Part shown: positions 7,097-28,861 of the stretch, piece by piece
Numbering within the stretch: the stretch's first letter is position 1
Layout: each line of letters opens with the position of its first letter
NCBI GenBank assembly: GCA_945883565.1
Contig: CAMCXO010000004.1
Span: forward strand, 62,001-126,000
Length of the DNA stretch: 64,000 bases
Direction: 5' to 3'
From: Chryseobacterium gleum
Lineage (GTDB): Bacteria > Bacteroidota > Bacteroidia > Flavobacteriales > Schleiferiaceae
The notes under the pieces: generated by a model
The model's input: the letters and a program-made list of their open reading frames with translations, nothing else
What the model was told of the DNA's origin: nothing
The model's database searches: none
Translations under genes and position numbers: made by a program

Positions 7097-7172
7097 TGGT
7101 TCACTTTCGTTCAGCTCATTGTATTCATACCTACAGAGATTCTTATCCCCGTTTTTCCTTATCGCTCACCAC
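7097..7172. repeat. 76-bp block shared with 25018-25093
   Basis: Matches 25018-25093 with one visible mismatch (CTACAG against CGACAG), in the same orientation. The left neighbours differ completely (a TonB-gene fragment here, a group II intron remnant there), so the edge TGGTTCAC is a true junction. Both copies lie about 130-170 bp left of a 120-bp palindromic element. No coding function was recognised. Confidence 0.9.
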
Positions 7173-7338
7173 CCTGTGGTTTCCCAACAACGCAGCATGA
7201 TGCGGTTTGCTCACTACGCTTGACCTTCGTAAGCGAGAGACCATTACAATTCCTCCTAAGAGATATTGACTCACATGTACTTTATAGCACTCCCTTTCAT
7301 TGTTCCCTTGGAAAGAGATTCAAGACACACCACGGTTT
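7173..7338. other. Non-coding accessory spacer
   Basis: Between the 76-bp shared block and element A I see no supportable gene. A long plus-strand open frame runs through 7034-7678, but it is built from pieces of other elements and shows no protein family. Confidence 0.6.
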
Positions 7339-7458
7339 GCAGCTACCCGAAGGTGGTGATTTAGAAGCACTTCACTGTCAACCTGCACAAAAGTTTGATA
7401 GGAGCACGCAGCTTCAATTTTGCACGTCACCGCCAATTGAGGCAACACGTTGTTGGCA
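7339..7458 (-). repeat. attC-like palindromic element A (120 bp)
   Basis: Starts GCAGCTACCCGAAGG and ends GTTGGCA on the plus strand. Outer arms pair imperfectly (GCAGCTACCC...GGTGGTGA with TCACCGCC...GGCAGC just outside). Same length and same conserved ends as elements at 16376 and 25226; the first about 85 bp are clearly homologous to the 25226 copy. The variable 7-mer GTTGGCA occupies the position expected of an integron core site. No intact cassette gene adjoins it. Confidence 0.7.
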
Positions 7459-16184: not shown

Positions 16185-16375
16185 ACTAATCCTATTATTA
16201 ATGTATATGTTCTTCTGGACAAAAGGATTCAAAATAAATACGCTCAGCGCCTTGAATGTATTTCATGTGTTGAAAATACTGAATAACAAGGAATTATGCA
16301 ACTTTTCGGCACATATATTATTAACAATCAATTAATTAAAGAAAGCAATAGGGCTTTTAGACAGATTGACGTCAT

Positions 16376-16495
16376 GCAGCTACCCGAAGATGGCGATTTT
16401 CACCACAAATGCTGATGCGGAGAACCACACATTAATTAACCAGAAATGTGTCTGCGGAGCACTGAACCGCCATTTTTGCCAAACCGGTGTTAGCG
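16376..16495 (-). repeat. attC-like palindromic element B (120 bp)
   Basis: Starts GCAGCTACCCGAAGATGGCG and ends GTTAGCG on the plus strand. Inner arms ATGGCG (about 16389) and CGCCAT (about 16469) pair, and CACTGAACCGCCA is identical to element C. It lies directly 3' of the gene 16531-17202. The terminal GTTAGCG is the reverse complement of CGCTAAC at 17211-17217 on the other side of that gene, as required for an integron cassette. Confidence 0.75.
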
Positions 16496-16530
16496 GTTCG
16501 GGCTTTTTTCTCAATCGTCATTTTCCTTAG

Positions 16531-17202
16531 TTATTGAAAGTTTTGTGCTTCTTTTACTGTAAATGCTTTGATGTCATTTGTTGGTGCGAAATATATCTTT
16601 TTTGGTGCAGGTAAAAGTTGCTTTTCTTCTCCCATTGCAAAGCCGAGTTTATAGCCAACATTATCGTCTGTTGTCAAGAATACGTTGTCGTGTTCGGTAT
16701 CGTCTTCTGGAATGAACAACATAACTTTTTTATTTGCTGACTTTTCAGTTATCCAACCTTTAGCTTGTCCAGTCGTTTCCCAAGCTGTAACATCAAATGA
16801 CTTGTCAAAACCCATCGGACTATGAACATAGTTAACGAAGTAACAATAAATTTCAAATTCAATGTCATAGGGAAATGTTATAGCAAATTGTCTTTCGCTT
16901 AACATATAAAGTCGTGGTAGTGCCTGAAAACTTTTCTTGTTATACATATTACAAAAGCCAGTCAAAATACTGTCCATTTCTGACTTGGATATCTTGTCAA
17001 CGATTACAAGTTTGTCATTTGGTTTTTCTTGTGTTGGCAAGTGTTTATTTGATGGTCTGGTTGTGTATCTGTCGGCTTCTGGTTTTTGTCCCGCTGGCAT
17101 AAAAGCCTTAAATGCAAAAATTAAAACTGCCACACCGATTATTATTAAAACCATTATCATATTCTTTTCTTTATTTGGTTGTTCGTTGGATTGTATCGTC
17201 AT
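16531..17202 (-). CDS. Membrane-anchored hypothetical protein (cassette gene)
   Basis: 223 residues, no family recognised. One N-terminal membrane helix (about residues 15-36, 'MIMVLIIIGVAVLIFAFKAF') is followed by a Pro/Lys-rich linker and a soluble domain of mixed alpha/beta character. The orientation is probably a periplasmic domain with an inner-membrane anchor. The start is 8 bp inside the unit boundary at 17211. The whole unit 16489-17217 is bounded by inverted GTTAGCG/CGCTAAC, so I regard it as a mobile gene cassette. Function unknown. Confidence 0.7.
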   Translation of the reverse strand: MTIQSNEQPNKEKNMIMVLIIIGVAVLIFAFKAFMPAGQKPEADRYTTRPSNKHLPTQEKPNDKLVIVDKISKSEMDSILTGFCNMYNKKSFQALPRLYMLSERQFAITFPYDIEFEIYCYFVNYVHSPMGFDKSFDVTAWETTGQAKGWITEKSANKKVMLFIPEDDTEHDNVFLTTDDNVGYKLGFAMGEEKQLLPAPKKIYFAPTNDIKAFTVKEAQNFQ

Positions 17203-17210
17203 AACCGGAC

Positions 17211-17342
17211 CGCTAACGGTTCTTAATAAACATCAGTGCAGCTTCGCCCAACGTAGGTTAAAATTACGGAACATGTTTTTATTGACCGCGAGCACGAAAC
17301 GAAGGAAGGTTAAAGCCGTATTGCGTTTATTTTGTGTTAGGC
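17211..17342 (-). repeat. attC-like site between two cassette genes (132 bp)
   Basis: Read on the minus strand it begins with GCCTAAC (17336-17342), a perfect fit to the attC R'' consensus RYYYAAC, and ends with GTTAGCG (17211-17217). An internal GTTGGGC (17246-17252) fits GTTRRRY. Internal arms TTACGG and CCGTAT pair. Length is within the range of attC sites. It is not a sequence homologue of the 120-bp elements. Confidence 0.6.
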
Positions 17343-17782: not shown

Positions 17783-17920
17783 TGCCAACGGTTTGGCACT
17801 TCTTTTCTTCGTCCATTTGTTGGTCAGTCGTGCGTTGGGACAGACACACTTTTTGCCAAGTTTTGGCTTGCGTGTCGGCTTGATCAACTTGGCAATGTGT
17901 GTGGCTGTGAGGGGTTGGGT
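17783..17920 (-). repeat. attC-like site at the 3' end of the jet operon (138 bp)
   Basis: On the minus strand it starts ACCCAAC (17914-17920, fits RYYYAAC) overlapping the jetD stop and ends GTTGGCA (17783-17789). A strong stem lies inside: ACACACTTTTTGCCAAG on the plus strand pairs with CTTGGCAATGTGTGT, extended by ACAG/CTGT. It could double as a jet transcription terminator. Confidence 0.55.
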
Positions 17921-19068
17921 TATTCATTGTCAAAGTATTTGTTTACATAGTCTAATGGGATTTTTTCTTGTTCAAATCTCCAGTTGTTTGTTTTCAAAAT
18001 CTCGTAAAGCTCTTGTTCTTCGTCTGACAAGTTAAGTTTTACGGAAATATTTGTTGGCGTTCCATTATCGTCTTCAAAAAAAGTGTCAAAGGCTTTCTTG
18101 TCCATTAAAACACTTCTTGTATGCGGAAAGTAAGTCCTGAATTGTGAAAGAATTTCAAAGCCTTGAACGTCTATGTCTCCCCAATAAAGTAATTTAAGAT
18201 TGTCAAGCCAACGTACATTTTTAAGATTGAAAACACTAAATCCACTACCAAAAATTGCAATGGTGTCATTCATTTTTGGAAGTGTCAAAGTGGTGTAAAG
18301 TGTTGTCTTGTTCTCTACGACCAATACTTTTTTAATTGATAAGTTAAGCTTTTCAAATTGGCTAACTGGAACAGCAATATCATCAATTCCCGAAAAAAAT
18401 CTTTCCGATATTGTTTTGTCAAGAACCTTAAACCGAATTTGAGGTTCAGCATATTTTAAATTAAACCTATTTTCAAATTCTTTTTCTTCACTTTTTACGT
18501 GTTCCGAGATTAGAACATCTAGCAGTTCCCTGATAATGCTTTTGTTTCTCTCGATAAATTTTGTGTGAACTTTTATCGGCAATTCTCTAATATATAAATT
18601 TGGTTTTGGATTTTGTTTAAAGTATTGACACACTTGCAAAATGTTTTTCCATTCGATCCCATTCTCAATAATCTTTCTAGGACTTTTAATTATCCAATCT
18701 TTGAGTTCAGGGAATTCCAGAAGGATTATCTCAACATTTGATTTGAAAGAATCTACTTCATTCTCTTTACCTAAAAATTTCAAAAAATCATTTTCATTAT
18801 CAAAGTAAATTGAAATTGGCAAATCTTGAGTTCCTAAATGCTTGGTCTTTATTTTTTGAAATTCCAATGTATAGCCAAAACCCTTTTTCTCCTTTGAATG
18901 GCTATGAATTTGTTGAATTTCTCTTTCAAATTCCGACAGTGAAGATTTGGTGTACGACTTATCGCCACGAATAACCAATTTCTCAAAAGGTCGCTGTTCA
19001 ACCAAAGATTGAAGAAATGAAATGTACTTTCTTTCTGTTTTATCCTTTATTTCCTTTGGTGTAATCAT
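17920..19068 (-). CDS. jetD: Wadjet nuclease subunit JetD
   Basis: Toprim/TopoVI-A-like nuclease of the Wadjet system, which cleaves small circular plasmid DNA after JetABC loop extrusion. The N-domain (DUF3322) shows 'LYIRELPIKVHTKFIERNK'; the C-domain (DUF2220) shows 'LLYWGDIDVQGFEILSQF', the acidic Toprim-like DxD site, then 'FPHTRSVLMDKKAF'. ATG 19068 gives a 4-bp ATGA overlap with jetC and reads 'MITPKEI'; a longer start at 19080 is a TTG and is less likely. Last gene of the jetABCD operon. Confidence 0.92.
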   Translation of the reverse strand: MITPKEIKDKTERKYISFLQSLVEQRPFEKLVIRGDKSYTKSSLSEFEREIQQIHSHSKEKKGFGYTLEFQKIKTKHLGTQDLPISIYFDNENDFLKFLGKENEVDSFKSNVEIILLEFPELKDWIIKSPRKIIENGIEWKNILQVCQYFKQNPKPNLYIRELPIKVHTKFIERNKSIIRELLDVLISEHVKSEEKEFENRFNLKYAEPQIRFKVLDKTISERFFSGIDDIAVPVSQFEKLNLSIKKVLVVENKTTLYTTLTLPKMNDTIAIFGSGFSVFNLKNVRWLDNLKLLYWGDIDVQGFEILSQFRTYFPHTRSVLMDKKAFDTFFEDDNGTPTNISVKLNLSDEEQELYEILKTNNWRFEQEKIPLDYVNKYFDNE

Positions 19069-22000
19069 TGAGTCATACAATTCGCTTTTTCTTCTTTGAA
19101 TTGTTCAATTGGCATATCATAGAGCCAAGATTGTTTTTCGTCTTTTATTTCAACATAATGAACATAGGAAATATTATCTTCAACGATATGTAAGTCATTC
19201 AAGGGGGTTACAACAAGTAGTTGAAGGTGCAGCTGCTTGCAAAGTGAAAGTAAATATTTGGCTTTCTCTTCATCTTGTGCCTTGAAGGCTTCATCAATAG
19301 CGACAAACCGAAAAGATTTAGACTCTAAACCCTGATTATATTTAGTTAAGCCAAATTGATAAGCTATGGCAGAACCTAATATTGTGTATGTCAACTGTGC
19401 TTTTTGTCCGCCAGATAATGCACCCATTCCTTCATAAGTTTTGAATTTGGCATTTGTTTCCTTGTAAAATTCTTCGGCTTTGTAACTAAACCAAGAACGA
19501 ACGTCCATTACTTTTATACGCCATTCTATTTTGTCTAATTTCTCAATAAATGGTTGAACATGATTATTAAAATGATGCTTTCTGCCTTCATTGTTTTTCT
19601 CCATTTGGTAAACATTTGGTACGGCTTCTTCTAAAAGCTTTCTAAATTCCTTTACTTCATCATTAATCTTGTTAGGAGCAACAAGTTGGATATAGGTTTC
19701 GGGTTTACTTTTGAAGTCAATCTCTTTTAAAGATTCATTCAAATGTTTGATGTTTTCTTTGATTGAATCTGACCAGTTTTCAAAGAACATTCTGAAATCA
19801 CCAACTTTGTTGGTAATTGTTTCTTGCAAATAATCGTTGAATTTCTTTTCAAACTTTGGAAGGTTATCATTCTCCAACTTAGCAAGGAAGTTTTGATATT
19901 CACTGATTAACTCTAAATGTGTTGAATCGGGTAGAGAATTAACATCAGAACGCCAATCCTTGAATTTGCTTAATATAGCTTCTGAAGGCTGTTTAAAATC
20001 GTTTATCTTGTTGATTACTTCTCTTTCTTTCCTTTGCTTCTGTTCTTCAAGTTCTCTTGTTTGTTTTGAATTTTCCATTTGGAATCTCTCACGACTTGAT
20101 TCAAAGGTTGCGTATTCAATATTCAGCAAATCGGAATGTTGTTTTTCAAACATTGAAACATCAACAATTCCCAATGGCTCATAAATAGATTTGTTACTCC
20201 TGATTGATTTTTCAATAGAACCAACTTCATTTTTCTTGGTAAATATTTCTTGCTCCTTATCGGAAATTTGAACTTTTGAAAGTTGGTTTAAAGAGTCTTG
20301 AACCTTTTTTAAATCCTCTTGTAATTGCTTTAGACGATTGTTCGTTTTTTCTAATTTTTCTTTCTGTTCTGTTTTTTCTTGTATATCGTTCGCATACGAT
20401 TGCCAGTTTATGTCATCATATTTTTCAAACTTTGAAAACAGGTTATGGCATTCATCCTTGAATATGCCTAAGTTTTTTATCTCGATATTTTTGTTTGCAA
20501 TCGCTTTCTTCTTTTCTGTTTGTTGATTTTGAAGATTGATTAATTCTTTCTTTAGAGAGGAGAGTTTTTCTTTGTTATCCCATCCCAATACAAAATTTTC
20601 CTTTCGAGTTATATGAGGCCGGTCGTCTTTTTCGTGTTTGCCCCTTTTGAATTTTATCAATCCATTTTGAGTAATTGCCATTTCGTGGAATTGCTCAAAT
20701 TCCGAAAGATTCTCTACGCAAACAAAATCAAATTGAGATTCCAAATAGTTCTCAATCCAATCGCAATATTGTGTTTTTGGCTTAATTTCAATTTTATTGA
20801 TTAATGACTTTTCGTTAAGTATTTTGTTCTTGAAATTTTTAAGATAGTCTTGGTCTTCATATTTGTCGTAACGAATTCTACCTTTCAAATTATTGCTGTT
20901 CACATATTGATTCACTGATGAATAGTACTTTTGTGGAACAATCAATCGTAATGCAAAATTGTGAAGTACTTTCTCAATTGATGATTCCCACTTCATTTCA
21001 TCATCCTTTACTTTAATCAATTCTCCAATAAATGGGATTTCTTCTCGATTTGCCCCAATGTGTGAAATGATTTCATCTCGTATTTCGGCTTCACGCCCTG
21101 CTATATTATTTTTGTTTTCTTGAAGAGTTTTTATAGTTTTTACTAAATCTTCGGTGTCTTGTTTTAGTTTATCTTCTTCATTCTTAAATGCACGGAGATT
21201 TTCAATTTCTATATCAATATTATTTTGCGTGATTTGTTTTAACTTCTTCGCACTTTCTCTGTTCGTGTTAAAAGTTTCTTCACTTGGGTTGGTGATGAAG
21301 TCGATGTTTTGGGCAATTTTATTGTAATCATCAAGTTTTCGACTTCTGTTGTCTTTAAGGGTTTGAAGATTTTTAATATCCTTCTCTAAATCTTTGATTT
21401 TACTTCCTACTTCATCTTTTTCAATCGAAATCGAGATAGTTCGTTCTTCTTGTTTTAGTTTTTCCTCCTTATCACGTAAATCAGTTAACTCATCATTTAA
21501 TCTTTGCAACTCTTCTTTACATTTCTCCAGTTCTTTTTCACCCAACTCAACACCTTTAGTTGCAAACCAATAAACTGCCGTTTCTTTCGACTTTTCCAAT
21601 CGAAATAAATCCGCTTTGATATTGGTCAGTTCTATTGCAATCTCATTAATTGGCCTTAGTTGTTCAATTTGTTCTTTAGCCTTTTCAATGTTGGTTTTAG
21701 CATCCATTAAAGTCAAGAAACTTTCTTTAAGTTGAATGAATTCTGCTTCCGCATCTTGTTCTTCCAACATATTGGTTCTTATGAAATCATCTAAGTCTTC
21801 CAATACTTTTACCCCAACAACTTGATTGAACAAAGTCAACGCTTTTGTTGAACGCATACCAAATAAGTCCGCCATTCTTTCTGCATAAGCAGTAGGTCCA
21901 TCTATGAACTCAATTTTCTTCTTCGTGACATTCGAGTTGTACTTTTTATCTAAAACCTTTTTCCAATTTCCTTTTGAATCGAATTGATCAAAATCAGATT

Positions 22001-22469
22001 CTACTTCCAGAGGAACGTGAGCAATTCCGAATTGCCGCCTTAATTCATTATTCGAAAACCAACGTACTTGAAAAAGTGTAATTTGTTTTTGGTCTGCATT
22101 GGAGAATGAAGCAAGAATTACTGAATAGGTGTTTGTATCACGCAATTTTTGTGTAGAAGTAGAAGTTTTTCCTTCTTCTTGAATGTTTCCGTAATGCCCC
22201 AACACATAGGTTTCTTCGGTACGGTCGCCTTTCTTCTCAACACCCGAAGATTGATTGTAAAAACGGTCTTTCTTTGCAGGAACAATTAGAGTAAGCAATG
22301 CATCAATGTATGTGCTCTTTCCAGATGCGTTTGCACCAGTCAAAAGTGAATTATTCCCATTCGGATTTATTCTAAAAACCTTTTCATTAAATGTTCCCCA
22401 GTTGTAAACTTCCATATATTGAAGTCTGAACCCCGCTTTGTCGGAACTTGTACTAAACAGACTCAACAT
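19065..22469 (-). CDS. jetC: Wadjet SMC-like ATPase JetC
   Basis: 1134 residues; MukB/SbcC-like motor. Walker A 'GANASGKST' (about 45-53) follows the strand 'YNWGTFNEKVFRI'. Two long coiled-coil stretches (about 270-480 and 650-900) flank a hinge region with 'IPFIGELIKVKDDEMKWESS'. The C-terminal ATPase half carries the signature 'LSGGQKAQL' and Walker B 'FVAIDEAF'. ATP hydrolysis by JetC dimers drives DNA loop extrusion that measures plasmid topology. It overlaps jetB by 17 bp and jetD by 4 bp. Confidence 0.93.
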   Translation of the reverse strand: MLSLFSTSSDKAGFRLQYMEVYNWGTFNEKVFRINPNGNNSLLTGANASGKSTYIDALLTLIVPAKKDRFYNQSSGVEKKGDRTEETYVLGHYGNIQEEGKTSTSTQKLRDTNTYSVILASFSNADQKQITLFQVRWFSNNELRRQFGIAHVPLEVESDFDQFDSKGNWKKVLDKKYNSNVTKKKIEFIDGPTAYAERMADLFGMRSTKALTLFNQVVGVKVLEDLDDFIRTNMLEEQDAEAEFIQLKESFLTLMDAKTNIEKAKEQIEQLRPINEIAIELTNIKADLFRLEKSKETAVYWFATKGVELGEKELEKCKEELQRLNDELTDLRDKEEKLKQEERTISISIEKDEVGSKIKDLEKDIKNLQTLKDNRSRKLDDYNKIAQNIDFITNPSEETFNTNRESAKKLKQITQNNIDIEIENLRAFKNEEDKLKQDTEDLVKTIKTLQENKNNIAGREAEIRDEIISHIGANREEIPFIGELIKVKDDEMKWESSIEKVLHNFALRLIVPQKYYSSVNQYVNSNNLKGRIRYDKYEDQDYLKNFKNKILNEKSLINKIEIKPKTQYCDWIENYLESQFDFVCVENLSEFEQFHEMAITQNGLIKFKRGKHEKDDRPHITRKENFVLGWDNKEKLSSLKKELINLQNQQTEKKKAIANKNIEIKNLGIFKDECHNLFSKFEKYDDINWQSYANDIQEKTEQKEKLEKTNNRLKQLQEDLKKVQDSLNQLSKVQISDKEQEIFTKKNEVGSIEKSIRSNKSIYEPLGIVDVSMFEKQHSDLLNIEYATFESSRERFQMENSKQTRELEEQKQRKEREVINKINDFKQPSEAILSKFKDWRSDVNSLPDSTHLELISEYQNFLAKLENDNLPKFEKKFNDYLQETITNKVGDFRMFFENWSDSIKENIKHLNESLKEIDFKSKPETYIQLVAPNKINDEVKEFRKLLEEAVPNVYQMEKNNEGRKHHFNNHVQPFIEKLDKIEWRIKVMDVRSWFSYKAEEFYKETNAKFKTYEGMGALSGGQKAQLTYTILGSAIAYQFGLTKYNQGLESKSFRFVAIDEAFKAQDEEKAKYLLSLCKQLHLQLLVVTPLNDLHIVEDNISYVHYVEIKDEKQSWLYDMPIEQFKEEKANCMTQ

Positions 22470-23031
22470 AATCTTTTAACTTATTTTCAAATTCTTGTAA
22501 AATATCAAGAGTGATTTTTTCTTTGATAATTCTATGTATTTGGTATTTCGTTTCATTGTCTTTCTTGTTTATTTCTTTTAAGTAGCCCAAATCAACAGCC
22601 GCATTGATATACTTATCAAGTTCTTTTATGAATTTGACTTTGTTATATTTTTCTGGAAGAAATAATTCTAACTCCTCGTTTATTTCTGTATTTGTGATAA
22701 ATTTTTCGGTTGCCAATTGTGTAGGATTGCTGTCAAAATCTTCTAGGCTTTGTCTTAGAACAACAAGCACAATAGAGGTTTCAAAGCCGATTTGTCGTCT
22801 TTGTACTAATCCGAGAGTGTTACCTTCACTATCTTCAAGTTGCTTTACAAAAGCAAATCCTTCATCTTTTTTAACGATTAACTCTAAACCAATTTTACTA
22901 ATGTAGTCCTGGATTTCAGTTTGATAATTTATTACATCATCCCATACATTGGAGTTTCGTTCTACGGTTGCTTTTAATAACCTTACAATGACTTTGCTAT
23001 AAGGAGTAATATGCTTTTCTAAACTGCTCAT
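22453..23031 (-). CDS. jetB: Wadjet subunit JetB (DUF4194)
   Basis: 192 residues; MukE-like winged-helix subunit (DUF4194). 'VIVRLLKATVERNSNVWDDV' and 'QDYISKIGLELIVKKDEGFAF' and 'LGLVQRRQIGFETSIVLVVL' match the family pattern. JetB bridges the kleisin JetA and DNA. It overlaps jetA by 4 bp (ATGA) and jetC by 17 bp, showing translational coupling. Confidence 0.92.
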   Translation of the reverse strand: MSSLEKHITPYSKVIVRLLKATVERNSNVWDDVINYQTEIQDYISKIGLELIVKKDEGFAFVKQLEDSEGNTLGLVQRRQIGFETSIVLVVLRQSLEDFDSNPTQLATEKFITNTEINEELELFLPEKYNKVKFIKELDKYINAAVDLGYLKEINKKDNETKYQIHRIIKEKITLDILQEFENKLKDYVESV

Positions 23032-24488
23032 TTGGTCAAAATAATTTCAGGGATTTTAATTTGTTTGCGGTTGTCCGCATCAAAAATGATACTTTGGGTT
23101 TTATCAGGATTGATAATGTGTTTGAATTCCTTCACAATGCCTATGTAACCGAACAACTCAGGCAACCCTTTTTCAAGACCACCATAATTTTCGACAATTT
23201 CTAAAAGTGTGGACTGCGACTTTTCTTTAAGTACATCTTTCACCCTTTTTCTCAACAATTCTTTATCAATATTAGACTGTGAAAACAGTCGTCCTAATTG
23301 ATTAGATGATGTAATGTCTTCATTAGCAATTTTGGGTCTATTGGTGTATGTAACTTCTTCAGATTGCTCTTTCGTGAGTTTGCGTTCAAATGGAATATTT
23401 ATATCTGTTGCTGTTTCTAATTCAAATGAAATATCAGGCTTGTTCTTGGATTTACTGATTTCTACAAGTTGCTTCTTAATGTCTTGAATTATTTTTTTCG
23501 TGGCTTCTGATTTAGAACTTTCATTCTCACGAATTATGCGGCTTAGTTTTTCAGCCATTTTATCATTGGCTTTGTAAACTTTTTGTCCTGAACTATGGAG
23601 ATGTTTTTTCATTCCTATCAGGAATGTATCCCTTACTGAGATTGATTTTTCTTCTAAGGTTGTGTATAAATCTTTGGTCAGGCTTTCCCATTTGTGCTGT
23701 AAATCTGGATTCAATATGAATGACCAGAAGGCGTAAAAGCTTTTTCCTTGTTGGCTTTCTTTTAATGATTCAAGTGCATCAAAAGTAAATTCCAGTATGT
23801 CACTCTTGGATAAGCTTCCATCAGCGTGTTTTTGATAAATCCCTTTTGTAATTTCTTTAAAGTTGTCTTCAACTTCTTTAAAGTCGGATAATAATTCTTT
23901 AGCGGATTGATTGAGTTGATTAAAACGGGGTACGATTTCAAATTCTTCAAATACTTTTACGTCTTCTCCGATTTTTATTCGTTGAATTTGTTGTTCAATT
24001 TCTAATTTTTTCTCTTCCAACAACTCTATACGCTTTTCGGCATCTTCATTAGTGAACTCAACCAACTCTTTTAATTGATTCAGTATGTTGTTGAATTTGG
24101 ATTCAGTACCAACAAACTCTTCCTTTTTTAAACTTGCCAACCAATCTATGGTTTTACTTGAATGTGAAGATAGTTCATAAAAAATTTCACCTTGTTCATC
24201 AGGATAATTCGTCAAAAAGCCATTGTTAGTCCAGTTTTGAATATACTTTTTGGCTTTATCTTCATAGGTGTCAAAAAAATTAATTTCATTTTCTTCATCG
24301 ATTTCAATTCTCTGTCCTTCTAAAAAGTCCGCTAATTGAGAATGAATATTCTCAGATGAAATGGAGTTTTGTTTATTAACGAAAGTTCTTACTAGAAATT
24401 CAATAATCATTTCTCTGTTTCGTAAACGTAACAAACCAACACTTGGAGAAGTGTTTAGCGTGTTTAGTATTTGAGAAATGTCTGCCAT
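23028..24488 (-). CDS. jetA: Wadjet kleisin subunit JetA (DUF3375)
   Basis: 486 residues; MukF-like kleisin, DUF3375, which defines type I Wadjet. N-terminal winged-helix 'SVGLLRLRNREMIIEFLVR' and 'LADFLEGQRIEI', central helical and coiled region, C-terminal 'GGLEKGLPELFGYIGIVKEF' domain. First gene of the operon. The upstream region (24489-24600) contains a strong hairpin and no clear TAnnTTTG promoter. Confidence 0.92.
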   Translation of the reverse strand: MADISQILNTLNTSPSVGLLRLRNREMIIEFLVRTFVNKQNSISSENIHSQLADFLEGQRIEIDEENEINFFDTYEDKAKKYIQNWTNNGFLTNYPDEQGEIFYELSSHSSKTIDWLASLKKEEFVGTESKFNNILNQLKELVEFTNEDAEKRIELLEEKKLEIEQQIQRIKIGEDVKVFEEFEIVPRFNQLNQSAKELLSDFKEVEDNFKEITKGIYQKHADGSLSKSDILEFTFDALESLKESQQGKSFYAFWSFILNPDLQHKWESLTKDLYTTLEEKSISVRDTFLIGMKKHLHSSGQKVYKANDKMAEKLSRIIRENESSKSEATKKIIQDIKKQLVEISKSKNKPDISFELETATDINIPFERKLTKEQSEEVTYTNRPKIANEDITSSNQLGRLFSQSNIDKELLRKRVKDVLKEKSQSTLLEIVENYGGLEKGLPELFGYIGIVKEFKHIINPDKTQSIIFDADNRKQIKIPEIILTK

Positions 24489-24499
24489 TTATAATTACT

Positions 24500-24590
24500 T
24501 TCTGTGCGTTGGAAAAAATTCAGGCTCTTTTGCTTGCGAAGCGGTCGCCCGTGCGTTGGGGCAAGCAAATGCCTGAATGTGCGGTTGGCA
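24500..24590. repeat. Hairpin with cassette-type core upstream of jetA
   Basis: CAGGC(TC)TTTTGCTTGC pairs with GCAAGCAAATGCCTG. The element ends in GTTGGCA (24584-24590), the same 7-mer as in element A and at the 5' side of the TonB-like gene. GTGCGTTGG occurs twice, and also in the hairpin at 17.8 kb. It may be an attC-like site or a structured leader. Confidence 0.45.
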
Positions 24591-24639
24591 TTTTATTTCT
24601 GTCGTTCATTTTGTTCACTGTCGTTGTCTTTTTAGCATT

Positions 24640-25017
24640 GGTGGTAATCGGGTCATACAGGGGAATCTCACCACTACCTTCCCACAGAACCGTGCGTGAA
24701 AGTCTCCCTTCACACGGCTCTTCATGTTGTTAAGTCACTAAAGATATTCAGCTTCACGGACATACCAATAACCAAAGTGCAAATTAATTGGGTCGTTCCC
24801 TGTATTTCGTGCGCAGGTATTGTAAACCCGCTTTCTTATACAGCCCCTTTTCCCATTTTACCCATTTCAGTAGTCGTAAGTTCAGTTGCCACCATACTGC
24901 CAACTTAACCCCGGATGCCATGTGTTCAGTAATCAGGCTCCTAACACACTCTGTCATAGGCACAAACGTAACCACCTACTTTCGACATCGCTTTTTGCGC
25001 TTACGAGGCTTCTTCAT
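24640..25017 (-). mobile_element. 3' remnant of a group II intron (RT C-terminus, domains V and VI)
   Basis: On the minus strand, an open stretch ends 'LLKWVKWEKGLYKKAGLQYL' and then 'RTKYRERPN', typical of the maturase/C-terminal end of group II reverse transcriptases. A TAA replaces the expected Leu before 'FALWLLV'. Downstream, about 24686-24722 folds as domain V: AGCCGTGTGAA...GAGA tetraloop...TTCACGCACGGTT with the AGC triad. A domain VI-like stem follows (GGGAAGG...), ending near TATGACCCG. The 5' part of the intron and the reverse transcriptase active site are missing. Confidence 0.75.
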
Positions 25018-25093
25018 TGGTTCACTTTCGTTCAGCTCATTGTATTCATACCGACAGAGATTCTTATCCCCGTTTTTCCTTATCGCTCACCAC
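25018..25093. repeat. 76-bp block shared with 7097-7172
   Basis: One mismatch against the copy at 7097. Here it abuts the truncated 5' side of the group II intron remnant and lies 132 bp left of element C. The intervening 25094-25225 holds no recognisable gene. Confidence 0.9.
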
Positions 25094-25225
25094 AAGTTTG
25101 TTTCCATATCAAGCAGCATAAGGTGGTTTGGCAACTACTCCTGGAAGTCGTCGCCGAGAGCCCTACTCTCATCTGTTCTAAAGCACCAACAATCCGCTGA
25201 TTGTTGTTCAAGCCACACACGGTTC

Positions 25226-25345
25226 GCAGCTACCCGAAGGTGGCGATTTCGGAGCACTTCACTGTCAACCAAGCAGAAACTTTGATAGAAGCACAAAGCT
25301 TGATTTAACCACTGAACCGCCACTTTTGGGTAGGTGCTGTTATGG
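25226..25345 (-). repeat. attC-like palindromic element C (120 bp)
   Basis: Starts GCAGCTACCCGAAGGTGGCG and ends GTTATGG. GCAGCTACCC-GAAG-GTGGCGAT pairs with ACCGCCAC-TTTT-GGGTA-GGTGCTG. It lies directly 3' of the gene at 25359-25865. The terminal GTTATGGCTC (25339-25348) is the perfect reverse complement of GAGCCATAAC at 26589-26598, on the far side of the two-gene unit. Confidence 0.8.
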
Positions 25346-25358
25346 CTCGTTTTTCTTG

Positions 25359-25865
25359 TCATTCGTCTGTCATTAGTTGGTTTAAGTATTCTCCAAATTC
25401 ACCTTTTATCTTTTTTGTCAATATCAATTCTCGGTTAAGAGTATCTTTTAAATAATAGTCTTTTAAAGTTTCTATTGATTGCTCGTGTCCCTTTATTGCA
25501 CCCATAATTAAATATTCGATTGCTAAATTTCTTGTTTTTAAATCTATCCTGTCAAGCAGTTTGTCTGGCGAATAAACTCCATTGTAATCTAAAATAGCCA
25601 TATAACAGTCAAAATATGCTTGTGTGTAGTCATACTTATTTGCCATTTTTAGAGCAATTGGAAAAAAGTCTCCGCTCGGATAATCTAAATAAGCAATTGA
25701 TAAAGTTTCATAGGCATTTGTGTCGCCTTTTTCTAAAGCAAGTTCTTTCAGTTCGCTTATTGGTCTGCCTGGATCATTCATAGACCTTTCTGTATTGTCG
25801 CTTCTTTTTGAATTACAAGAAGAAACAACAAAAAGCAAGAATACAATTATGTGATTTATCTGCAT
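25359..25865 (-). CDS. Hypothetical lipoprotein (cassette gene)
   Basis: 168 residues. Lipoprotein signal 'IIVFLLFVVSSC' with lipobox cysteine at about residue 17, then a helical domain with 'ALEKGDTNAYETLSIAYLDY' and 'LIMGAIKGHEQSIETLKDYY', which hints at short TPR/Sel1-like helical hairpins but does not reach a clear family match. The 5' end overlaps the upstream membrane-protein gene by 10 bp, so the two are co-expressed. Second gene of the unit bounded by GTTATGG/CCATAAC. Confidence 0.75.
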   Translation of the reverse strand: MQINHIIVFLLFVVSSCNSKRSDNTERSMNDPGRPISELKELALEKGDTNAYETLSIAYLDYPSGDFFPIALKMANKYDYTQAYFDCYMAILDYNGVYSPDKLLDRIDLKTRNLAIEYLIMGAIKGHEQSIETLKDYYLKDTLNRELILTKKIKGEFGEYLNQLMTDE

Positions 25866-26548
25866 CGTTTCATTGTTTCAAATTTTATACTGTCAACTTG
25901 TTTGTTGTAATTAAAGTAGTAATATTTTTCTAAACTGTCTTTTGAAGATACTATCATTTGTAAAAAATCATAGTCTCTAAGTCCCTCAGGCGGAAATTGT
26001 GCAGCCATACCCATACCTTCAAACCAAACGCCTATTTCAGAACTGATCGTTACTTTTTTAGCATCGTCCCAAAACATATAGTTTGCTCGTTCAGGAATTT
26101 TAATTCTGTCTCCCGTATTTGTTACATAAAAATATTGGTGATTTATGTAGCCGCTTTCTATTTTTCCCTTATATAATAAAATTCCGCTTTCAGGAAAGTT
26201 TAGTTGTTCTCTCCTGTCCTTTTTGATAATTTCTTGTCCACAGTCGATTTGTTGAACTACAATTGCCTTTCCCTTAAAATTATCAGGAAAGTTAAAGTCA
26301 AGTTTTTGAGCGGTCGCAGTCCCTATAGTGCCTATCAGATACATAAAAACATAAAAAGAAGGATACCAAAATATTACTGGTAAAACTGTCCAAAGTGTTT
26401 TGTTTAAAATCTTTGTCTTACTAAACCATAAAATTCCAACTCCGACAAGAAAAACAGGAACAGTAAAAATTAGCAAATACGGATTGAGTGAAACCAAAAA
26501 GGTTAGGATAATTATTCTCAGTCCTATTATGTATTTTTTATCTTTCAA
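25856..26548 (-). CDS. Hypothetical membrane protein (cassette gene)
   Basis: 230 residues. Two or three N-terminal membrane helices (about residues 8-42 and 52-75) are followed by a soluble beta-rich domain ('FPDNFKGKAIVVQQIDCGQE', 'GILLYKGKIESGYINHQYFY', 'YMFWDDAKKVTISSEIGVWF'). I do not recognise the family with certainty; it resembles small Bacteroidota proteins whose soluble part contains a 'F.IP..f.G...V' strand. First gene of the two-gene cassette-like unit; the boundary 7-mer lies 40 bp upstream of the start. Confidence 0.7.
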   Translation of the reverse strand: MKDKKYIIGLRIIILTFLVSLNPYLLIFTVPVFLVGVGILWFSKTKILNKTLWTVLPVIFWYPSFYVFMYLIGTIGTATAQKLDFNFPDNFKGKAIVVQQIDCGQEIIKKDRREQLNFPESGILLYKGKIESGYINHQYFYVTNTGDRIKIPERANYMFWDDAKKVTISSEIGVWFEGMGMAAQFPPEGLRDYDFLQMIVSSKDSLEKYYYFNYNKQVDSIKFETMKRCR

Positions 26549-26635
26549 TTCAGTGTCGTTTTGTCGTTTCGTGTCGGTCTTTTAAAATGAGCCATAACTT
26601 ATATATATACGAAAAAATACTGTACTTTCTCTAGC

Positions 26636-26834
26636 TTATTGTGGTTTGATGATTTGCGCAGCATATTCATTATTAGCGGTTTTATTGGCTTTGGTAAAAT
26701 TAGCTGCATTTTGTGTCAATTGATCTAAGGTGCTGTTTATTTTATTTACTTTGACTTGGGTTAAGTGGGTATAAAGGGTAATGGTCTTGATGCTTTGGTG
26801 GCCTTAAAATCTGATGAATCCGGTTGCGAACCTT
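26636..26834 (-). pseudogene. C-terminal remnant of a tyrosine recombinase at the head of the cassette array
   Basis: On the minus strand, 'GHQSIKTITLYTHLTQVKVN' followed by 'KINSTLDQLTQNA' and a stop at 26636-26638 matches the end of phage-type integrases (the LGHxSIKTT...YTH box with the catalytic Tyr). Just upstream the frame is broken: an extra A gives TAA where 'IL-GHQ' should join 'RNRIHQ'. Arg, Lys and the first His boxes are absent. It sits about 40 bp from the outer boundary of the first cassette-like unit, on the same strand as the cassettes. Confidence 0.65.
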
Positions 26835-27360
26835 CACATTTTGAAAGGCCCTATAACACATGTGCGAAGCATTCCAATAGACTCCTTTTGCGTTTTTAAG
26901 TTCTTGTACCCATTTTTGTCGGTAATGAAGTTAAAAAACCCGGTACCGACCTTCTGCGAAGATATCAGGGCTGCGCTGGAAAAGCCTTCGGCAAATTGAC
27001 GAAAACCAGCGTCAATAAAGGGTTTTAATACAAGCGTGATTTTGACAAAATTGGTGTTCTTTGATGGATTTTTTTGATTTGGCATTAAAACCGCCCTGCT
27101 CCTTGCTAGTTGTCTGCAATTGCCCAGAAGATTTTGCCTAATGGTTGTTGGTTTTTTTTGTGTCATTGAAAAAAGTTATCATTCTACGAATTGGCGGGGT
27201 TATTTATAATGTAATTGTAAATGGTTTGATATGATTTATAATTAGGAATGATGTGAAATCGGGATTGCCATTGAAAATCATGCCCTAGATGGTTGGCATG
27301 TTTTGTTACGTCAGATTTATAGGAATATATATTGGATGAAATGGGATTTTTGCCAATGTT
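26835..27360. other. Region without a supportable gene
   Basis: A minus-strand open frame (26834-27166, 110 codons) shows no recognisable family and lies against the recombinase remnant; it may be a decayed gene. The rest is AT-rich. No RNA gene or promoter was recognised. Confidence 0.5.
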
Positions 27361-27439
27361 TTGAAACCGTTGTTGTGCAATGGTTGGGGGTGGATTGGTG
27401 TTTTGTTGGATGATTGTATGGACGATTGTAGAGGCGATT

Positions 27440-27467
27440 GTAGAGACAGGGCATGCCCTGTCTCTAC
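27440..27467. repeat. 28-bp perfect palindrome
   Basis: Perfect inverted repeat centred on GGGCATGCCC with arms GTAGAGACAGGGCA and TGCCCTGTCTCTAC, no loop. This sequence type recurs as a dispersed element in Bacteroidota and cyanobacterial genomes. It sits 65 bp before the start of the tandem array. Confidence 0.8.
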
Positions 27468-27504
27468 GTTATCGGTGTGGGGCGTTGAACATTCGAAGGT
27501 TGTA

Positions 27505-28197
27505 GATAATTTGAAAACTCCGGTAAAAAAATTGAAAATGCCTATTAATGAATGCTCGAAGCCAAATAATGGCTGTTTGATGCCGGCGCGGGAAGGTTTG
27601 AAGTCCATTGATAATTTGAAAACGCTGGTAAGAAAATTGAAAATGCCTATTAATGAATGCTCGAAGCCAAACAATGGCTGTTCGATGCCGGCGCGGGAAG
27701 GTTTGAAGTTTATTGATAATTTGAAAACTCCGGTAAAAAAATTGAAAATGCCTATTAATGAATGCTCGAAGCCAAACAATGGCTGTTTGATGCCGGCGCG
27801 GGAGGGTTTGAAGTCTGTCGAAAATTTGAAAACGCTGGTAAAAAAATTGAAAATGCCCATAAATGAATGCTCGAAGCCAAATAATGGGTGTTGGATGCCG
27901 GCGTGGGAAGGTTTGATGACTGTTGATAATTTGAAAACGCCGGTAAAAAAATTGAAAATGCCTATTAACGAATGCTCGAAGCCAAATAATGGCTGTTCGA
28001 TGCCAGTGCGGGAAGGTTTGAAGTCTATTTATAATTTGAAAACTCCGGTAAAAAAATTGAAAATGCCTATTAATGAATGCTCGAAGCCAAACAATGACTG
28101 TTCGATGCCGGTGCGGGAAGGTTTGAAGTCTGTTGAAAATTTGGGAACGTTGGTAAAAAAATTGAAGAAGCCGACTGATTAATGCTCAAAGCGGGCG
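27505..28197. repeat. 105-bp tandem repeat (5 x 21-bp higher-order units)
   Basis: Six complete 105-bp copies begin at 27505, 27610, 27715, 27820, 27925 and 28030, with a diverged partial seventh from 28135. Each contains five 21-bp subunits with a TTGAA/TCGAAG core (TTGAAAACTCC, TTGAAAATGCC, TCGAAGCC, TTGATGCC, TTGAAGTC). Both strands stay open for long stretches because the period is a multiple of three. The plus frame reads heptads such as 'NLKTPVK', 'KLKMPIN', 'EGLKSID'. Confidence 0.9.
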
Positions 28198-28659
28198 GTT
28201 GAACGTTTGAAGTCGGCGGTTGAACGTTGGAAGCGGGCGGTTGAACGTTTGAAGTCGACGGTTTAACGTTTGAAGTCAGCGGTTTAACGTTTGAAGCGGG
28301 CAGTTGAATGTTTGAAGCGGGCAGTTGAACGTTTGAAGCGGGCAGTTGAATGTTTGAAGCGGGCGGTTGAATGTTTGAAGCGGGCGGTTGAACGTATGAC
28401 GCGGGCGGTTGAATGTTTGAAGCGGGCGGTTGAACGGTTGAAGCGGGCGGTTGAACGTTTGAAGCCGGCGGTTGAACGCTTGAAGCGGGCGGTTGAATGT
28501 TTGAAGCGGGCAGTTGAACGTTTGAAGCCGGCGGTTGAACGTTTGAAGCGGGCAGTTGAATGTTTGAAGCCGGCAGTTGAACGCTTGAAGTCGTCGGTTG
28601 AACGTTTGAAGCCGGCGGTTGAACGTTTGAAGCGGGTAGTTGAACGTTTGAAGCCGCGC
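28198..28659. repeat. 21-bp minisatellite (22 units)
   Basis: Units of the type GTTGAACGTTTGAAGCGGGCG start at 28198 and recur without a single indel to 28659. The phase is the same as the 105-bp array (28198 minus 27505 is 33 x 21). The plus frame reads 'VERLKRA' heptads with TAA at 28264-28266 and 28285-28287; the minus strand reads 'PASNVQP' heptads without stops to 28723. No spacers, so not CRISPR. No coding evidence beyond openness. Confidence 0.9.
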
Positions 28660-28861
28660 CAGGGATTGCAGCGGAAAGCCCGCAGCCGCCATTACCATAG
28701 CCTTTTGAATTAATCATGCCCATCCTTAAATCCGGTAAATCATGGTTCAGACAATGGCGGCGAGGACTTGGAGCGCAAAGCCCGGCCCGCGTGGGGCAGG
28801 AAAATGTCTTGGCTATGCTAAAACCTTCTGCCCCGCTCGGGGGCGCCTAAATGGTTTGTAT

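Follow-up and report, generated by a model that had tools for sequence, protein, structure and literature searches.

What kind of unit do the two overlapping genes at 25339-26598 belong to, given that this stretch begins and ends with complementary 10-mers? The window, i.e., the whole stretch of DNA analysed here, is 64,000 nucleotides long and covers bases 62001-126000 of contig C4, from an assembly of 2.86 Mb in 64 contigs that is 99.4% complete and has its relatives in the Bacteroidota. The first-pass annotation proposed a mobile cassette with a core of its own, and the 10-mers on which it relied, GTTATGGCTC (25339-25348) and GAGCCATAAC (26589-26598), are correctly placed and exactly complementary, with a pairing that extends to 15 bases when one mismatch is allowed. 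As a bare inverted repeat, the pair is not significantly above chance: the 1.26 kb stretch contains 6 inverted pairs of 10 bp, for 2.7 expected. Genome-wide, the abundance of the 10-mers, which the annotation had singled out for checking, is not high; the cassette-end 10-mer has 8 copies in the 2.86 Mb genome, equal to its backwards control, and the copies elsewhere are at chance level. The pair owes its significance to its context, as it starts exactly at an attI common to five places of the genome and as own-core pairing recurs at other platforms. Judged by the features described below, the stretch is very probably the first gene cassette of a minus-strand integron platform with a HARP-type tyrosine recombinase devoid of patch III.

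A probable integron platform in the window

From 26957 downward on the minus strand, the window displays an integrase remnant, an attI, the two-gene cassette, an attC hairpin, a truncated group II intron, and Wadjet genes (Table 1).

Table 1. Features of the platform and its array, in window coordinates.
Feature	Position	Strand	Description
Tyrosine recombinase remnant	26636-26957	-	End of an N-terminal module fused to the final ~50 codons (GHQSIKTITLYTHLTQVKVNKINSTLDQ), with deletion of the catalytic core
attI	26598-26637	-	AAGCTAGAGAAAGTACAGTATTTTTTCGTATATATATAAG, ~40 bp, ending ATATATATAAG; crossover AG^TT at 26598/26597
R' box	26589-26598	-	GTTATGGCTC, first ten bases of the cassette; complementary to 25339-25348
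Cassette gene 1	25856-26548	-	Membrane protein of 230 aa, hydrophobic N-terminus, DUF6843 (Pfam PF20862, E 1.2e-11)
Cassette gene 2	25359-25865	-	Lipoprotein of 168 aa, lipobox VVSSC read from sequence
Cassette attC	25220-25348	-	R'' box at 25348-25339 (GAGCCATAAC), L'' GCACCTACCC, L' GGGTAGCTGC, end AACCG
Truncated group II intron	24647-25218	-	At the attC; reverse transcriptase is a C-terminal remnant; exact ends inferred
Wadjet type I JetA, JetB, JetC, JetD	17923-24488	-	PADLOC JetA1-JetD1 and Pfam; inside the array
Last cassette	16489-17217	-	R' GTTAGCGGTC at 17217; R'' AACCGCTAAC at 16498-16489, 9/10 complementary
Right boundary of the array	16310-16376	-	GTCAATCTGTCTAAAARCCCTATTGC..., common to contig C18 and a sister MAG

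The recombinase remnant, whose identity is supported by its reading frames and by full-length homologues, is 68% identical to a remnant on contig C6, with one internal stop. The attI that follows aligns with its counterparts on Flavobacterium platforms, and its core, the 14-mer TATATATAAGTTAT, is found at five places in the genome, on C4, C6, C8, C18, and C64. All five copies have the same integrase tail before them and a cassette with 10-bp complementary ends after them; in the window, the cassette start immediately after attI reads TTATGGCTC. The C4 core differs from the others by a compensated change (GTTATGG/CCATAAC versus GTTATAG/CTATAAC), and the two halves of the C8 core lie 9.9 kb apart, enclosing a type I restriction-modification system, so that two genes in one cassette are not the rarity suggested at first. 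The ~120-bp hairpin region of the window attC has homologous sites on C18, C8, C48, C6, C56, and C5, and its bottom strand is predicted to fold with an R box, a four-base spacer, an extrahelical base, and an L box.

The two cassette genes overlap by 10 nt. Gene 2 has no Pfam or PADLOC match, neither gene matches a known PADLOC defence model, and to give the pair a role in the envelope or in interacting with the host would be guesswork. Locus L088, from a different genome of the order, has a DUF6843 homologue between 10-bp complementary ends (GTTGTACACA / TGTGTACAAC) with an attC-like sequence adjoining, which indicates that members of the DUF6843 family are also moved as cassettes outside the window's genome.

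The intron at the attC matches RF01999 at 25050-25170 (84.9 bits) and RF00029 at 24647-24722 (60.7 bits), and the conserved domains D1-D4 and D5-D6 are thus both represented; its ends were deduced by comparing the 3' flanks of related copies. It struck the attC of the two-gene cassette at a later stage. A second group II intron fragment (7129-7255; RF01999, 48.2 bits) comes right after an attC-like site at 7319-7438, hence introns have struck such attC sites at least twice.

Further along the array, no closed set of cassette boundaries was found between 24646 and 17789, nor was an R'' for a Wadjet cassette when sought from the inferred intron exon. At the far end, the attC and R box at 16376-16498 are very similar to those of a Flavobacteriaceae MAG (L079), a likeness that suggests cassette exchange between families. 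A hairpin of a second kind, distinct from the attC and with a stem around GCACAAGCCGACACACAAACC, recurs within cassettes and beside Wadjet genes (17820-17900 and 24520-24600 in the window, ~1600-1680 in L059, and ~3150-3250 in L035).

No intact integrase was found in the window's own genome, the 99.4% complete assembly holding only remnants, and an internal integrase deletion is common to C4 and C6. Since every integrase copy found is broken, the platforms of this genome are relics, fixed, or served in trans; mobility would belong to the past, or would depend in trans on something outside the assembly. The five copies of attI with an integrase tail represent a degenerate platform that has been multiplied. 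Long minisatellites adjoin several degenerate platforms: in the window, they occupy 27387-28720 with units of 105 bp and 21 bp, and similar tracts lie beside the integrase remnants of C18 and C3 (L034, L060).

Defence genes are found as first cassettes or in the array alongside: on C18 a DRT-type reverse transcriptase, on C6 AbiU, on C56 an AbiL-like pair, on C8 the restriction-modification system, and in the window Wadjet. Given this anti-phage cargo of several platforms, the system may pass defence genes around within the Bacteroidota. The first cassette after the C64 attI (L067) encodes a protein of 291 aa with a C-terminal stretch resembling a nucleotide-binding or TIR-like domain, for which no Pfam or PADLOC match was found.

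Full-length systems in relatives

A query with the conserved N-terminal part of the remnant retrieved 17 loci in named genomes, mostly of Flavobacterium. Complete HARP-type integrases, from Flavobacterium and other Bacteroidia, are about 570-620 residues long. A conserved attI, ending TTTACTAG^TT or TATACAAG^TT, directly follows the integrase stop codon and is itself followed by unrelated cassettes. The integrase abuts attI in 12 genomes, and in three loci (L118, L126, L127) the stop codon TAG lies within attI.

No clean empty-site allele was found at the window locus. Two congeners, G001 and G003, in which SusD is followed directly by grpE-dnaJ, were considered as such and rejected, as grpE-dnaJ is absent from the other flank of the window locus. 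Of the alleles sought by the first-pass annotation, the empty ones are therefore missing at this locus, whereas swapped-site alleles exist for the system. Loci L078 and L079, from two genomes, share 94.4% identity over 3182 bp that run through integrase and attI and stop 3 bp past AG^TT, beyond which identity falls to 31%; the exchange occurs at G^TT, and the pair is, by its sequence, a cassette-swap allele. A break right after AG^TT is also seen in three further pairs, involving L073, L075, L076, and L082.

The first ten bases after attI pair with a downstream R'' over 10 positions in 13/16 platforms, over 9 in two, and over 8 in one, and cross-comparisons used as a control reach 10 in 6/228 cases only. 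Later platforms from other families gave 10 (L127), 9 (L126), and 9 (L129), and L128, which has a full-length integrase and an attI, showed no paired R'' within 11 kb. When arrays are walked, each successive cassette has its own core, with 109-121 nt from R'' to the next G^TT; 31 of 35 cassettes have distinct cores, and a single R box of the 35 fits GTTRRRY.

R and L boxes, an unpaired spacer, and an extrahelical base are the recognised features of integron attC sites. Circular attC sites were rebuilt using the first bases of the cassette itself before folding the bottom strand. Most of them yield a hairpin that comprises R and L boxes, the former 10-11 bp long, together with a short unpaired spacer and, as a rule, a single extrahelical base; in nearly all sites, the cassette's own core folds better than that of its present neighbour. 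The first attC of L083, L074, and L127 gave no clear fold as cut out by the script.

The mobile unit of the first reading is thus borne out as a cassette of integron type, given its attI and attC context, and its private core corresponds to the R'/R'' box pair of the cassette's attC. That core, initially regarded as an oddity, is nevertheless the rule for integron cassettes, both in successive cassettes and in class 1 controls. Own-core pairing was also considered as a special trait of the HARP-type system, and this was rejected: three class 1 integron controls display it over 12, 8, and 9 bp, which makes the key observation made earlier a normal integron trait. The unusual component of the system is the recombinase.

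Identity of the recombinase and weighing of alternatives

Box I and box II are separated by 92 residues in most members of the family (95 in L054, L118, L126, and L127); all measured IntI proteins have 133, and the two Xer-type proteins of the genome have 94-98. The ~41-residue patch III insertion is missing, and the alignment to IntI4 (PDB ID: 2A3V) breaks at the insertion. Four members score 207-217 bits with TIGR02249, below its curated cut-off of 265 bits. In the tree, the IntI clade (100/100) and the HARP-type family (99/99) are separate, and their sister relation has a weaker support (92/82) and carries a long-branch warning.

The predicted structure displays three N-terminal β-β-α-β-β-α modules, in a region covered by no Pfam family. 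The third one resembles the N-terminus of T4 UvsW (1rif_A; Z 7.5, rmsd 1.9 over 64 residues), a modest match and the only entry to touch the N-terminal half in a list of fold matches otherwise filled by the catalytic domain. The UvsW N-terminus has been described as a HARP domain (PMC4666394), and the HARP fold of SMARCAL1 and UvsW, a β-sheet packed on two helices, was compared with the integrase modules. The integrase belongs to a Bacteroidota family of its own, combining three predicted HARP-like modules with an Xer/IntI-like catalytic domain lacking patch III. It is rare, being found in 2/395 genomes of the order and 7/395 of the class, counts that were obtained with different thresholds and include remnants and one single-module match. 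Searches of viral contigs with the N-terminal profile, and of plasmids for the N-terminal half, returned none.

Could a canonical IntI, lost or residing elsewhere, have moved these cassettes, with the HARP-type gene beside attI as a bystander? The attC structure and own-core pairing do resemble those of ordinary integrons, and canonical IntI is frequent in other parts of the phylum, scoring above the cut-off in 84 of the 296 phylum genomes sampled. Against this, the window's genome holds no IntI over the cut-off, the listed genomes of the order none, and those of the class one. Furthermore, a dozen genomes have attI immediately at the end of a HARP-type integrase gene, three of them with the stop codon inside attI. 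An array served by IntI is hence improbable.

The perfect inverted 10-mers at both ends of the unit would also be compatible with a transposon or MITE bounded by 10-bp terminal inverted repeats. Terminal repeats of transposons, however, are constant between copies, and the cores here are mostly distinct; moreover, the left flank is always attI, the right flank always attC, and the unit is devoid of transposase, all of which renders a transposon highly improbable. A fortuitous inverted repeat around two neighbouring genes could draw on the 2.7 pairs expected in such a stretch. The pair nonetheless sits exactly at attI and attC, the pattern is repeated at 15 other platforms, and successive cassettes along the arrays carry their own cores, which leaves chance with next to no credibility. 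The integron platform with a HARP-type recombinase is supported at the level of sequence by its attI, its attC-like hairpins, the private core of each cassette, the swap allele, and the absence of the patch III insertion.

Proposed mechanism and comparison with known integrons

In the mechanism proposed for this platform, the tyrosine recombinase, whose gene adjoins the array, would have cut attI at AG^TT, and a circular cassette would have inserted there with its attC folded as a single-stranded hairpin. R', the first ten bases of the cassette, and R'' would form the two halves of the hairpin base, and would for this reason be complementary to each other and differ between cassettes. The HARP-type integrase family would be the catalyst of this recombination and the folded bottom strand its substrate, with the HARP-like modules presumably taking over the recognition of folded attC. 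We lean slightly toward a second kind of integron, a Bacteroidota system of cassette capture in which a tyrosine recombinase without patch III recognises folded attC via three tandem HARP-like structure-specific DNA-binding modules, and for which integron recombination would predate the IntI insertion or have arisen twice.

The catalytic-domain insertion has been described as essential for integron function, yet incompletely conserved in an integron-like subgroup (PMC8138268), and IntI has been defined via the domain that surrounds patch III (PMC9668308). As integrons are recognised by IntI and patch III, the HARP-type lineage could be taken for lone clusters of cassettes, or overlooked. If its integrase works without patch III, it can no longer be held that this insertion is what enables an integrase to deal with folded attC, and a testable substitute is then available in the HARP-like modules. 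Complete integrons have been reported as only rare in Bacteroidetes (PMC9024848), and no description of a HARP-type integron lineage was found in the searchable, open-access part of the literature, on which no priority can be claimed.

Group II intron insertion at integron attC has been reported for other integrons (PMC7923331). The window intron resembles the integron group II introns (IIC-attC, and group IIB UHB.I2 of PMC7923331) in being a truncated intron at an attC, oriented on the cassette strand as UHB.I2 is.

Among Bacteroidota, single-module proteins named "site-specific tyrosine recombinase/integron integrase" (NF040815 naming) have a similar catalytic domain with a spacing of 91-92 residues; they differ by their single N-terminal module, their length of about 350-400 residues, and their position in a separate clade (100/99). 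Treponema integrons are known in which the integrase gene is read in the direction of attI (PMC3607928). Those integrons, however, were found via intI genes, i.e., IntI proteins, whereas the integrase of the window's lineage is not an IntI. With IntI integrons at large (class 1, sedentary chromosomal; IntI4, 2A3V), the HARP-type platforms share an attI with a G^TT crossover, attC hairpins with R and L boxes, own-core pairing, and arrays of unrelated genes. In contrast with them, the HARP-type integrase is devoid of the ~41-residue patch III insertion and has three N-terminal modules, the R box rarely reads GTTRRRY, and attI follows the integrase gene on its 3' side.
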